From the NCBI GenBank assembly GCA_029916745.1, contig JARXWK010000019.1:1-64000 (forward strand): a DNA stretch of 64,000 bases, written 5' to 3'. Positions 8,131 through 50,913 of the stretch are shown here, piece after piece. This DNA is from Dysgonomonadaceae bacterium PH5-43 (GTDB lineage: Bacteria; Bacteroidota; Bacteroidia; Bacteroidales; Azobacteroidaceae). The notes under the pieces are model-generated. The model saw nothing but the letters and a program-made list of their open reading frames with translations, was not told where the DNA came from and made no database searches. Both the position numbers and the translations under genes were made by a program. The first letter of the stretch is position 1; the number at the start of each line of letters is the position of its first letter.

Positions 8131-8370
8131 TGTAGAGCCCCCTTGTCGTTGTTAGTAGAAAGGCGAGTTGCTTCTTAGTAGATACCCCCTGTCGCTCTTA
8201 GTAGATACCCCTCCTCTCTCTTAGTAGAGACCCGATGCCGCTCTTTATAGAACCGCCTAATCTCTCTTAGTAGAACCACCCCGTCGTTCTTAGTAGATAC
8301 CCCTCGCCTTTCTACTAAGAGAGGGAAGGGGTCTCTTAGTAGAGAGACGACCCTAAGTGAAGCTTTGCAT
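8131..8370 (+). repeat. 23-bp modular tandem array (core TTAGTAGA), copy 1
   Basis: Units of 23 bp consist of a core CTCTTAGTAGA and about 12 variable C-rich bases. Examples of the variable part are TACCCCCTGTCG, GACCCGATGCCG and ACCACCCCGTCG. About nine units are visible; one is mutated (TTTATAGA) and the unit near 8310 is inverted. The block ends in CCCTAAGTGAAGCTTTGCAT (8351-8370), which occurs exactly inverted at 36038-36057. Reading frames through it are shadows, because 23 is not a multiple of three. The gap 7951-8657 otherwise holds the small RNA, the repeats of the next entry and a terminator. Confidence 0.8.
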
Positions 8371-8391
8371 TTTTTAGAACTAAGAACTAAG

Positions 8392-8572
8392 AGTGAAGAA
8401 CTAAGAATTGGCGCGAAGCGACAAGTGAGCAAGCTCGTAGTTAAAAACTAAAAGATAAAAGTTAAGACACCCAAAGGGTGAAAATTCCATAGCCGTATGG
8501 CGAGCGAAGCGTTGCCTACGGGGACAGAGTGAAGAACTAAGAACTGGCGCGAAGCGACAAGCGAGCAAGCTC
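8392..8572 (+). repeat. 45-bp direct repeat pair with family C sequence between
   Basis: Bases 8392-8436 and 8528-8572 are the same 45-bp sequence with two T/C differences. They contain AACTAAGAAYTGGCGCGAAG and end in GAGCAAGCTC. Between them lie AAAAACTAAAAGATAAAAGT, the hairpin CACCCAAAGGGTG (8469-8481) and ATTCCATAGCCGTATGG. Related AAAGATAAAAGTT/GGCGCRAAGCG sequence recurs at 14.84-14.95 and 42.94-43.05 kb. Confidence 0.8.
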
Positions 8573-8602
8573 TAAAAGATAAAAGTTAGGATATATGGAT
8601 AT

Positions 8603-14839: not shown

Positions 14840-14945
14840 GAGGAAGATAAAAGCTAAAAACTAAAAGTGAGAAATTTACGCGAAGCGTATTAGAGTCGCT
14901 TCGCGCTAACTTTTATCTTTTAGTTTTTATCTTTTAACTTTTTCA
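14840..14945 (+). repeat. Imperfect long palindrome, repeat family C
   Basis: The left arm has GATAAAAGCTAAAAACTAAA, the right arm has CTTTTATCTTTTAGTTTTTA. At the centre is a perfect 9-bp hairpin, CGCGAAGCG (14879-14887) with 14897-14905. The same words occur between atpA and atpG and at 8.4-8.6 kb, so this is a dispersed element, not a gene-specific signal. Confidence 0.7.
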
Positions 14946-25998: not shown

Positions 25999-26152
25999 TG
26001 AAACAGATTGTTTCAGCAAGGAGAAACAAATAGTTTCATTATGGTGAAACAAGTAGTTTCATTAGTATGAAACAAACTCTTTCAAAGTATGAAACAAGTA
26101 ATTTCAGTTATATGAAACAAATTCTTTCAAAGTATGAAATAAGTCGTTTCAA
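25999..26152 (+). repeat. Array of seven ~22-24 bp palindromic units (GAAAC...GTTTC)
   Basis: Seven units such as TGAAACAAGTAGTTTCATTA and TGAAACAAACTCTTTCAAAG follow each other, and each is a short inverted repeat (GAAA...TTTC). The period is 22-24 bp. No identical longer repeat or unique spacers exist, so this is not a CRISPR. It fills most of the gap 25971-26269, which otherwise shows nothing recognisable. Confidence 0.75.
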
Positions 26153-26269
26153 GGTATAAAAAAAACGCCAAGAACTATTTAGTAGCACCTTTTTTTGGAT
26201 GAATCAACCCATCTATTTCACTACAAAAGGACTTCTTTTTGTGAAATAAATGATCAAATGTTTCCCAAT

Positions 26270-34166: not shown

Positions 34167-35296
34167 TATAATCTGTATTGAAGTTTAGGAATCATAGTCT
34201 GTTTCCACGACGAAAAATCGCCTTCGATAATATGTTTGCGAGCTTCCTTTACCAACCACAGGTAGAAAGCAAGATTATGAATCGACGCTATTTGAAGAGC
34301 CAATATCTCGTCTACCATAAAAAGATGACGTAGATAGGCTTTCGTATAAAGGGTGTCGACCACCGATGCTCCGTCGGCTTCGATAGGCGAGAAGTCGGCC
34401 TCCCATTTTTTGTTTCTCATATTCATAATTCCCTCCTTAGTAAACAGTTGTCCGTTGCGTCCGTTGCGAGTTGGCATAATACAGTCGAACATATCAACAC
34501 CTCGTTCTATCGCTTCGAGTAGGTTAGCCGGAGTGCCAACACCCATCAAATAGCGAGGTTTGTCTTTCGGAAGAATCTCGTTTACCACCTCAATCATTTC
34601 GTACATCTTGTCGGTAGGTTCGCCAACGGCTAATCCGCCGATAGCGTTTCCGTCGGCATTTTTATTTGCAACGTTTTCGGCAGCTTTTCTTCTCAAGTCG
34701 GGGTATACGCAGCCCTGAACAATAGGGAATAGGGCTTGTGTGTAGCCATATTTTCCCTCCGTAGAGTTGAAGCGGGCAAAGCATCGGTCGAGCCAACGCT
34801 CGGTGAGTTCTAACGATTTTTTAGCGTACGAATAATCGGCATCACCAGGGGTACATTCGTCGAATGCCATAATAATATCGGCTCCGATGCTTCTCTGTAT
34901 ATCCATCACCCGTTCGGGAGTAAAAAGGTGCTTCGAGCCGTCGATGTGCGAACGGAACTCGGCTCCTTCTTCCCTTAGTTTTCTGTTGGCAGAGAGCGAG
35001 AATACTTGAAATCCGCCGCTGTCGGTAAGTATCGGTTTGTCCCAACCGTTAAATTTGTGCAGTCCGCCAGCTTTTTCGAGTATCTCGATGCCCGGACGGA
35101 GATATAGGTGATAAGTATTTCCTAAGATGATTTCGGCTTTTATATCTTCCTTTAATTCGGTGAAGTGCACTGCCTTAACTGTGCCCTGCGTACCTACGGG
35201 CATAAATATAGGTGTTTCGATTGTGCCGTGGTCGGTAGTAATTTTACCTGCTCGGGCATTCGATAACTTGTCGGTATGTTGTAAATCAAATTTCAT
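34166..35296 (-). CDS. tgt: tRNA-guanine transglycosylase (queuosine synthesis)
   Basis: Tgt exchanges G34 of GUN tRNAs for preQ1. The 376 residues have ILTDSGGFQVFSLSANRK, IMAFDECTPGDADY, GGLAVGEPTDKMYEM and the nucleophile region GVDMFDCIMPTRNGRNGQLF. The C-terminal zinc site that usually reads CxCxxC...H is not present: the region DFSPIEADGASVVDTLYTKA has no cysteine, although IHNLAFY remains. I believe Bacteroidota relatives share this but could not check. A -7 element TATCTTTG lies at 35314-35307 on the minus strand. lptG follows by overlap. Confidence 0.94.
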   Translation of the reverse strand: MKFDLQHTDKLSNARAGKITTDHGTIETPIFMPVGTQGTVKAVHFTELKEDIKAEIILGNTYHLYLRPGIEILEKAGGLHKFNGWDKPILTDSGGFQVFSLSANRKLREEGAEFRSHIDGSKHLFTPERVMDIQRSIGADIIMAFDECTPGDADYSYAKKSLELTERWLDRCFARFNSTEGKYGYTQALFPIVQGCVYPDLRRKAAENVANKNADGNAIGGLAVGEPTDKMYEMIEVVNEILPKDKPRYLMGVGTPANLLEAIERGVDMFDCIMPTRNGRNGQLFTKEGIMNMRNKKWEADFSPIEADGASVVDTLYTKAYLRHLFMVDEILALQIASIHNLAFYLWLVKEARKHIIEGDFSSWKQTMIPKLQYRL

Positions 35297-35327
35297 AATG
35301 AGGGTGCAAAGATAATCTTTTTCCTTA

Positions 35328-35948
35328 TTATTTTACGATAGTTAAAACATAATCGTCGGTAACGAGGTAATCTACGGCGAACGATTGTTGCTTTTTGCTT
35401 CTTGTTTCTCTCGCCATAAATTTCGCCCATTGGTTTATTTTCGGCACAAAGGGTTGAATCTCTAGTTCTGATATGAAATTTATATCCTTGTAGTTGAGCC
35501 GTTTAAACAGAGACTCTTTGGCCGACCAGTGCAACAAGAGGTGTGTTACGGGGTTGCTGGTCGAGATGTTTTTCAGTTCTACGTCGCTCATAAATCTACT
35601 CTGTATATTTTTCACTCTCGTGGATATAAATTCTATGTCGATACCTACTTCGTGTTTTTTACTGAGTGCGACGGCTACGTAACCCTTTGTGTGGCTGATG
35701 CTTATGTTGTACGAATTGTCGTGTAGCAACGGTCTGCCGTTTTCGTTGTACGTTATTTTTTTATGTTCGCCCAGCAGCATATATATAAGGTAACGCACGG
35801 TTAGTTTTTCAACCCGCCGGGCTTCGCATTTAGTTTCTATATCAGCGAGATAGGCGTTGTTGCGGAGTATATCTATAAGCTCGTCCGACGAATGTTCGAT
35901 AGGCAACACGCCCACAATGCAATCGTCTATATTTTCTAACGTATTCAT
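35328..35948 (-). CDS. 4'-phosphopantetheinyl transferase superfamily protein
   Basis: The 206-residue, Sfp-like protein transfers phosphopantetheine from CoA to carrier proteins. It has ISISHTKGYVAVALS, the Mg-binding VGIDIEFIS and LLHWSAKESLFKRL (the WxxKE motif). The gene lies 31 bases upstream of tgt on the same strand and could be co-transcribed, but tgt has its own -7 box. Its -7 element TATCTTTG lies at 35977-35970 on the minus strand. Confidence 0.9.
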   Translation of the reverse strand: MNTLENIDDCIVGVLPIEHSSDELIDILRNNAYLADIETKCEARRVEKLTVRYLIYMLLGEHKKITYNENGRPLLHDNSYNISISHTKGYVAVALSKKHEVGIDIEFISTRVKNIQSRFMSDVELKNISTSNPVTHLLLHWSAKESLFKRLNYKDINFISELEIQPFVPKINQWAKFMARETRSKKQQSFAVDYLVTDDYVLTIVK

Positions 35949-36037
35949 TTAAAATAATGTGTGATTGCACAAAGATAGTATAAAAAAGTGGGAACGTAAA
36001 TTTACGTACGTATGAAAAAGAAAAATAGAGATGGTAA

Positions 36038-36326
36038 ATGCAAAGCTTCACTTAGGGTCTTCTCTCTACTAAGAGACCCCTTGTGTCTCTACTAAGAGAG
36101 GAGAGGTCTCTCTACTAAGAACGGCGGGGTGTCTTAAGTATAAAGACGGGGTGGTTCTACTAAGAGCTGCATCGGGTCTCTACTAAGAAACAGCTCGCCT
36201 ATCTACTAACAAAGGCGAGGGGTATCTAATAAGAAGCAACCGTCCTCTCTACTAAGAGCAACAAGGGAGTTCTCATAAGATGCGGAGAGAGAGTTCTATT
36301 AAGAGCAACTAAGTGCTTTGCAAGAG
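36038..36326 (-). repeat. 23-bp modular tandem array (core TTAGTAGA), copy 2, inverted
   Basis: The array begins with ATGCAAAGCTTCACTTAGGG (36038-36057), the exact inverse of 8351-8370. About eleven 23-bp units with core TCTACTAAGAG follow. Several variable parts match copy 1 in a different order or combination, for example CTGCATCGGGTC, GACGGGGTGGT and AAAGGCGAGGGGTA. Bases 36327-36640 upstream of the atp promoter are A/T-rich and I see nothing further in them. Confidence 0.8.
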
Positions 36327-36646
36327 AGATATAGCCGTCCATTTGTCCTGTCGCTCATTTTTACGCTATTCTCCGAGAGTTAAGAGATTGCAGATGGTTG
36401 CCTATTGTGGCAGTTTACTTACTCTCTTGCCTTCTCTCTCAAATTAAGTAAAGGGTCGATAATATCAAAATAATATAAAAAAGAGAAGTGTTGTGAAAAT
36501 AAGTAAGTAGAGAAAATGTTGAGAATTTGGGTGAAATAGAAAAAATACGCTTGGAAAACTAAAGTTATTCATCTAATTTTTGTCGGAAAAATTTAAGTAG
36601 CCAACCTTTAATGTTATGAATTAAATAAAATAATGTTAAACAGTGC

Positions 36647-36677
36647 TTGCTAATTGCGTAATAAGTATGTACATTTG
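36647..36677 (+). promoter_or_regulatory. Promoter of the ATP synthase operon
   Basis: TTG (36647-36649), 20 bases, TACATTTG (36670-36677), 26 bases before the atpD start. Confidence 0.65.
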
Positions 36678-36697
36678 CAAACGTTTAAAATAAATAA

Positions 36698-38209
<1,512 letters not shown>

Positions 38210-50831: not shown

Positions 50832-50913
50832 ATTATCGGCTCTACAACCGATAATGGGTGATTATCGGCTCTACAACCGATAATGGGTGATTATCGGCTC
50901 TACAACCGATAAT
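50832..50913 (-). promoter_or_regulatory. Triple palindromic operator of the satD-DUF3307 genes
   Basis: Three identical 24-bp copies of ATTATCGG-N8-CCGATAAT lie at 50832-50855, 50861-50884 and 50890-50913. The GGGTG linker gives a strict 29-bp period, so successive sites are not quite on the same helix face (about 2.8 turns). The first copy supplies the TTG of the -33 region. The array ends at the stop codon of the upstream YcxB-like gene. Confidence 0.9.

Follow-up and report, generated by a model that had tools for sequence, protein, structure and literature searches.

The window analysed here comprises the first 64,000 nucleotides of contig JARXWK010000019.1 of Dysgonomonadaceae bacterium PH5-43 and holds two arrays with a 23-bp periodicity (periods of 23 and 46 in array 1 and of 23 in array 2), the second of them upstream of atpD. 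As the first-pass annotation had described, both alternate an 11-bp core, CTCTTAGTAGA, with 12-base linkers, and both close on a common end, originally given as a 20-bp anchor, where we observe the same 24 nt (GACCCTAAGTGAAGCTTTGCATTT). The pattern TTAGTAGA has 20 matches in the window against 4.65 expected, and none of 100 shuffles reached 20 or more.

Array 1 belongs to a short-class copy on the forward strand (8131 to 8373) made up of a variable 5′ part, nine 11-bp cores and a tail, with its leader side at low and its tail side at high coordinates; the left edge is approximate, with BLAST coverage from other copies fading about 250 nt upstream of the anchor. The 23-bp array itself spans 8149 to 8343 (+), with cores at 8149, 8172, 8195, 8218, 8241 (CTCTTTATAGA), 8264, 8287, 8311 (inverted) and 8333, and is followed by a tail (8344 to 8373, +) that begins GAGACGACCCTAAGTGAAGCTTTGCA and contains the anchor AGTGAAGCTTTGCA at 8356 to 8369. 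To its right (8374 to 8600, +) lie two flank modules, ii (starting AACTAAGAACTAAGAGTGAAG) and iii (AACTAAAAGATAAAAGTTA), which are found beside many copies of the element and also solo.

Copy 2 is of the long class and runs in the opposite orientation. An array does lie at 36038 to 36326, where it was initially placed, but it is part of a 510-bp element on the reverse strand (36037 to 36546) that exceeds this range, with the tail at low coordinates, then the array, and the leader at high coordinates. These limits are the ones at which six other places in the same genome begin and end their matches (36036/36041 to 36543/36547, 83 to 91% identity). The tail (36037 to 36064, −) carries the anchor at 36039 to 36052, the 23-bp array (36065 to 36305, −) includes a stem-forming variant, CGTCTTTATACTTAAGACACC, near 36133 to 36150, and the conserved long-class leader (36306 to 36546, −) adjoins a promoter-like stretch upstream of atpD. 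This stretch, at 36545 to 36588 (AATACGCTTGGAAAACTAAAGTTATTCATCTAATTTTTGTC), matches many places in congeners at 84 to 94%, adjoins the leader of another copy (L050) as well, and looks like a conserved promoter.

Three further repeats were observed in the window. Between ORFs at 25999 to 26166 there is a second array (period 22-23/45), whose hairpin-like units, TGAAACAAATAGTTTCA, do not obviously resemble the 23-bp arrays. At 14844 to 14940 lies an inverted repeat with 44-nt arms that are 82% complementary, composed of pieces of module iii and of GCGAAGCG, with no array, and at 50832 to 50913 a perfect 29-bp tandem repeat in 2.8 copies with an internal palindrome (ATTATCGG...CCGATAAT).

In the 2.54-Mb draft genome we found 88 copies of a single dispersed intergenic element, to which both arrays of the window belong; each copy is built as a leader, a 23-bp array (11-bp cores with 12-bp linkers) and a near-invariant tail. 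The core CTCTTAGTAGA has 298 matches in this genome, against two for a reversed control. Copies were located by tail anchor, core and DNA comparison (40 of 96 candidates scored in the latter); 80 places were found at first, of which L046, without an array, was dropped, and eight further places added nine copies. All 88 are oriented by their tails, and copies without a recognisable tail may add more, so the family numbers at least 88. A leader of about 240 nt, in an element of about 510 bp, defines the long class (35 of 88); the conserved leader is absent from the remaining 53, seven of which are cut too close to a contig end for a leader to show. To the right, copies are flanked by one or another of several recurring modules, whose distribution is uneven between the classes. 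Placement is intergenic, with 77 of 79 copies free of ORFs (≥70 aa) in the 180 nt before the tail; the exceptions are copy 1 of the window (L091), which overlies an 86-aa ORF of the opposite strand, and L070, which overlaps the last 14 nt of an ORF. A diverged copy, L126 (G000:C4:10700-13700), has the core CTCTTAGGAGA and repeated stem variants and perhaps represents an older subfamily. L119 (G000:C8:46700-49900) is a tail-to-tail pair 145 bp apart, one member being a minimal copy of about 110 bp.

Unit order follows a common register when slots are counted from the tail. Slot 1 is of type H in 86 of 87 parsed copies, slot 2 is G or a close relative (G proper in 74 of 86), slot 3 is type F in 82 of 85, and slot 6 is type C in 45 of the 51 copies parsed to at least six units, 27 of which read exactly C-D-E-F-G-H; another 32 copies were parsed only to three units, where the parser fails at a stem variant. 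Beyond C, on the leader side, types A and B occur in variable number. The two arrays had initially been taken to use the same modules in different neighbourhoods, which fits the variable leader side and one displaced linker, TACCCCTCGCCT, which array 1 has in its third slot (making it one of three parsed copies without type F there) and array 2 upstream of the B linker, but not the tail side, where order is nearly constant across the family. Cores mostly keep a single orientation; inverted ones are commonest in the two tail-adjacent slots (29/87 and 49/86), which account for 78 of 107 inverted calls. Compared by eye, slot-1 versions differ solely in a 4-base centre, TAGT or ACTA, inside palindromic arms, a difference that would match hairpin-tip inversion or template switching.

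The sharing of linkers between loci was borne out, with 9 of the 10 linkers parsed from array 1 having exact matches in copies elsewhere in the genome; overall, 670 parsed linkers fall into 278 distinct ones, a few of which are very common. A CRISPR, with near-identical repeats and unique spacers, was rejected as the linkers are shared between loci. Reuse of this kind across loci is also not what slippage alone, with no module in common, would leave. That the loci are unrelated minisatellites generated by simple slippage accords with the varying number of leader-side units, yet tail, leader, slot order and identical linkers are common across loci, and with such shared flanks this explanation is refuted, its probability being next to nil. 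The unit-level recombination proposed in the first-pass annotation holds in part: the same linkers are reused between loci and copies seem to exchange array pieces, but most of the reuse reflects common descent of one dispersed element in a fixed register rather than free shuffling, since order is retained in the tail-side slots. Positions of the same linker vary in concert: among the strongest mutual-information pairs, most are less than 12 nt apart (60 copies, with 26 of 86 left out as being out of register). Leader class and array subtype are mixed among 81 copies, six long copies carrying the subtype commoner in short ones and 19 short copies the other, and right-flank modules occur in several combinations across copies.

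With respect to the location of similar copies, we observe that close relatives are found on one contig more often than by chance. Among 81 copies, 7 of the 30 most similar pairs share a contig (0.99 expected; as many in none of 5,000 permutations), as do 8 of the top 100 (3.2 expected, P = 0.017); array-poor copies are left out of these similarity tests. On average, similarity is not significantly higher for the 47 adjacent pairs (P = 0.107), which counts against the immunity-type reading discussed below.

Folding of the arrays is strong on either strand (41 copies with 25 shuffles each, mean z = −4.5 and −4.4; z = −2.1 to −3.6 in single cases) because tail-side linkers are near reverse complements of leader-side linkers. 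Among 76 copies with a head-side ORF, the short class is mostly downstream of that gene (30/43) and the long class mostly upstream (20/33; Fisher, p = 0.011). Both observations would suit a structured RNA, in which transcribed hairpins act as terminators or mRNA 3′-end elements. We nevertheless consider this reading improbable, given that a copy's own arms pair no better than arms taken across copies (P = 0.74, 82 copies), i.e., there is no sign of compensatory change, that the strongest covariation (60 copies) lies inside linkers, that Rfam gives no match in the window, and that the spacing of copies would be left unexplained. Membership in an RNA family was rejected on the absence of an Rfam match in the window and of copy-specific compensation, and we attribute the symmetry of the array to DNA sites and not to an RNA under selection. 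Orientation linked to replication was likewise rejected, with no relation to local GC skew (86 copies).

Neither the ends of the element nor the enzymes searched for gave a match to a known mode of mobilisation. In 34 long copies, terminal inverted repeats score 7.8 within a copy, against 7.5 with other copies and 6.9 (sd 1.3) when shuffled, and a scan for target-site duplications in the same 34 gave a best excess of 3.3 matches over the control, which is no clear signal; with no terminal inverted repeat standing out and no clear duplication signal, we do not file the element as a MITE. The two published terminal-repeat strings of BrickBuilt, an element described below, occur (≤2 mismatches) near 2 and 0 of the 88 copies, in both cases far outside the array. 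A Y1 transposase (RAYT) was not found in the genome by a search whose control was positive in 5 of 14 genomes, and mobilisation by RAYT was accordingly rejected; the Mu-transpos_C profile has no match in the genome, nor in any control genome. A composite transposon was rejected for the 7.5-kb interval between two head-to-head copies on contig 8: no transposase is seen among the five large ORFs, which match an ABC ATPase, a nucleotidyltransferase (weakly, narrowly below the Pfam cut-off), superoxide dismutase, an S41 protease and a PfkB kinase.

Across other genomes, the family appears restricted to this lineage. The core pair is absent from 57 relatives, 33 of them congeners, and among 294 other genomes of the order it occurs in one, in a different repeat. 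Comparison of the 34200 to 38000 region with 38 genomes gave matches in 36, its own included, to tgt and atpD and not to the element elsewhere (65 to 78% in the longer congener matches; with seven candidates scored per genome, this comparison is the weaker one). A stricter pattern has no match in a collection of named genomes that may omit near relatives; tgt itself has its best match there, among the best 80 of 591, in Parabacteroides (84%), which fits Bacteroidales. BLASTN with the long element found no relatives among plasmids and phages, and the viral matches (one of the core pair, five of the anchor) are not arrays.

The present host belongs to the Bacteroidales, as does Porphyromonas gingivalis. 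It is in the latter that the first-pass statement that no named element matches is overtaken: BrickBuilt, described in the excerpted report as a minisatellite-MITE of P. gingivalis with 19 copies and with 12-bp terminal inverted repeats resembling those of IS5-family elements (PMC4596501), has the same anatomy, a likeness that stops short of demonstrated identity. According to the same excerpts, BrickBuilt is made of 23-nt units in tandem, unspaced and more variable in one half than in the other, and has a non-repetitive leader and tail that are unlike each other, both of which features are found here; it is also intergenic and species-limited, with a variable unit number and long predicted stems (PMC4596501). 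The differences are the copy number (88 against 19), the two leader classes and inverted core centres seen here, and the terminal inverted repeats, which BrickBuilt has and which do not stand out here in 34 long copies (PMC4596501). By anatomy BrickBuilt is thus the closest known element, and the present one may work alike. The BIME/REP elements, in the excerpted account (PMC2817692), are similarly intergenic, species-specific arrays of palindromic units with recurring spacers; here, however, cores lie mostly in one orientation with a 23-bp period and a single leader and tail per array, and the RAYT transposases known there have no Y1 counterpart found in the present genome.

Pieces seem to be exchanged between copies and similar copies are often linked, yet full arrays never lie within 12 kb of each other on one contig. 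Copies with full arrays define 47 within-contig gaps, all of at least 12,784 bp, where the smallest gap in 20,000 random placements never exceeded 5,402; no gap is below 12.5 kb, against a random mean of 18.9 and never fewer than 7 (array-poor copies are left out of this test). Taking all copies, there are 54 gaps, and excluding the 145-bp pair, which is left out in part of the gap tests, 1 of 53 is below 10 kb (19.1 expected; minimum of 8 in 20,000 placements). Gaps above 12.5 kb fit an exponential (Kolmogorov-Smirnov [KS], p = 0.74), where the same data supplied both the fitted mean and the cut; cuts between 10.5 and 13 kb pass too, whereas 9 kb (p = 0.014) and no cut (p = 1e-7) fail. The longest gaps reach 94 kb, and an exponential tail past 12.5 kb is the pattern expected of random placement with a hard exclusion rather than of a metronome. 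The exclusion holds for same-orientation neighbours (29 gaps, minimum 10,966), tail-to-tail neighbours (14 gaps, minimum 13,482 besides the 145-bp pair) and head-to-head neighbours (11 gaps, minimum 13,108 besides one of 7,468), as well as between long and short classes (21 gaps, minimum 13,063 besides the 145-bp pair) and within each class. In the literature searched, which included a MITE review and was covered in excerpts, we found no report of a spacing exclusion among intergenic repeats; the excerpted BrickBuilt report describes none, its 19 copies being, as judged by eye, too few for such a test (PMC4596501).

The three smallest of the 54 gaps (145, 7,468 and 10,966) each touch an array-poor copy (p = 0.003), defined as having five cores or fewer, a threshold set after looking; seven such copies touch 9 of the 54 gaps. 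Those at short gaps are L119b (four cores), L061 (two) and L038 (five), while two of the other four are cut by contig ends, one lies near a contig end, and L126 is diverged rather than short, a mixture that tells against the immunity-type reading. Because the short-gap exceptions are array-poor copies, the exclusion appears to depend on the array. Repeat iii, which is likewise multi-copy in this assembly and served as a control, shows no exclusion (7 of 25 gaps below 5 kb, null 4.1; 9 below 10 kb, null 7.5), and module ii gaps do not depart from chance (P = 0.15 to 0.18); in these module tests array-adjacent places were kept in the gap test and two module-ii places on array-free contigs were left out. 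Solo flank modules, in turn, mildly avoid arrays (8 of 44 within 7 kb against 17.7, P = 0.001; 3 within 3 kb against 6.6, P = 0.08), which immunity conferred by the array alone would not predict and which therefore counts against that reading.

An assembly artefact, in which contigs break at repeats and close pairs are lost, could be suspected from the 12 of 92 contig ends that lie within 1 kb of an array tail, above the few expected. Close repeats do assemble, as seen from repeat iii and the 145-bp pair, and with contigs apparently numbered by size, at most 9 of 46 are smaller than C37 (14.0 kb), too few for about 18 hidden gaps, which makes this explanation very improbable. The 12.5-kb exclusion is what we measure among present copies in a draft assembly. 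Alternatively, the element could be a dispersed repeat of the ordinary kind, whose copies end up spaced because recombination between close neighbours is selected against; the copies are alike and seem to exchange units, and the exceptions, being shortened, would also be poorer substrates. This account is weakened because neighbours in opposite orientation, which are unable to delete the intervening DNA, are excluded alike: 23 of their 25 gaps exceed 13 kb and the remaining two involve shortened copies. Selection against deletions moreover gives no edge near 12.5 kb, and we regard the account as having only a small chance of being correct.

Chromosome architecture offers another possibility, namely that a nucleoid- or topoisomerase-type protein binds the arrays, about one per domain, with selection against two strong sites in the same domain. 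Cores that are near-palindromic and recur every 23 bp (81 of 88 copies have 7 to 12) resemble a binding array, BIME-2 of E. coli binds gyrase according to the excerpted account (PMC2817692), and both the exclusion of about 12.5 kb and the avoidance of arrays by solo modules fit such a landmark. We nonetheless think it rather unlikely, as gaps run up to 94 kb in an exponential tail with no preferred spacing, array orientation is unrelated to local GC skew, and the 57 relatives searched lack the core pair.

The explanation that we favour, while giving it somewhat less than an even chance, is a BrickBuilt-like non-autonomous element whose array confers an exclusion resembling target immunity. A single lineage-specific dispersed intergenic element has reached at least 88 copies. 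In this view, copies already present would give rise to new ones, preferentially in the same chromosomal region, and recombination would have swapped array units and flanking modules between copies. A protein supplied in trans (a transposase, its targeting partner or a recombinase) may bind the repeated core along the array, and the bound array would block new insertions nearby, such that each full array bars a second one for about 12.5 kb on both sides, whereas copies stripped of much of their array would cease to exclude; exclusion would act at insertion rather than by later loss. Tn7-like elements and Mu, in the excerpted reports (PMC11702153, PMC8649781, PMC7350765), likewise have arrays of transposase sites at their ends and close kilobases around a copy to insertions. 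Tn7 differs in carrying genes and three and four end sites, the present element being non-coding. Such an exclusion zone is present here as a pattern of current copies, not as an insertion experiment. Counting against the immunity reading, the terminal inverted repeats of the 34 long copies are not clearly above chance and no clear duplication signal is seen, the searches for Y1 and Mu-transpos_C proteins yielded no cognate enzyme, the assembly is a draft, and the immunity reported for Tn7-like elements and Mu in those excerpts decays with distance, where the edge near 12.5 kb is sharper (PMC11702153, PMC8649781, PMC7350765).

As a dispersed intergenic repeat the element is ordinary; what is unusual is its sharp and apparently array-dependent exclusion. 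That the 23-bp array is a cis-acting keep-out signal, keeping any second full array from inserting or surviving up to a sharp boundary at about 12.5 kb, is a tentative proposal that we hold to be possible though not probable. If true, a minisatellite element that is itself non-autonomous would carry target immunity, and one genome would suffice to read off the radius directly. Earlier work on immunity, as excerpted, concerned known transposons and prophage Mu, and the 88 natural copies here give an exclusion radius in nature, with the short-array exceptions pointing to the part that may carry it. These results also suggest that the BrickBuilt plan is not confined to Porphyromonas. Should chromosome architecture be the cause, the arrays would mark domain-sized units; in both cases, the array offers a way to test how the spacing of small elements on a bacterial chromosome arises.
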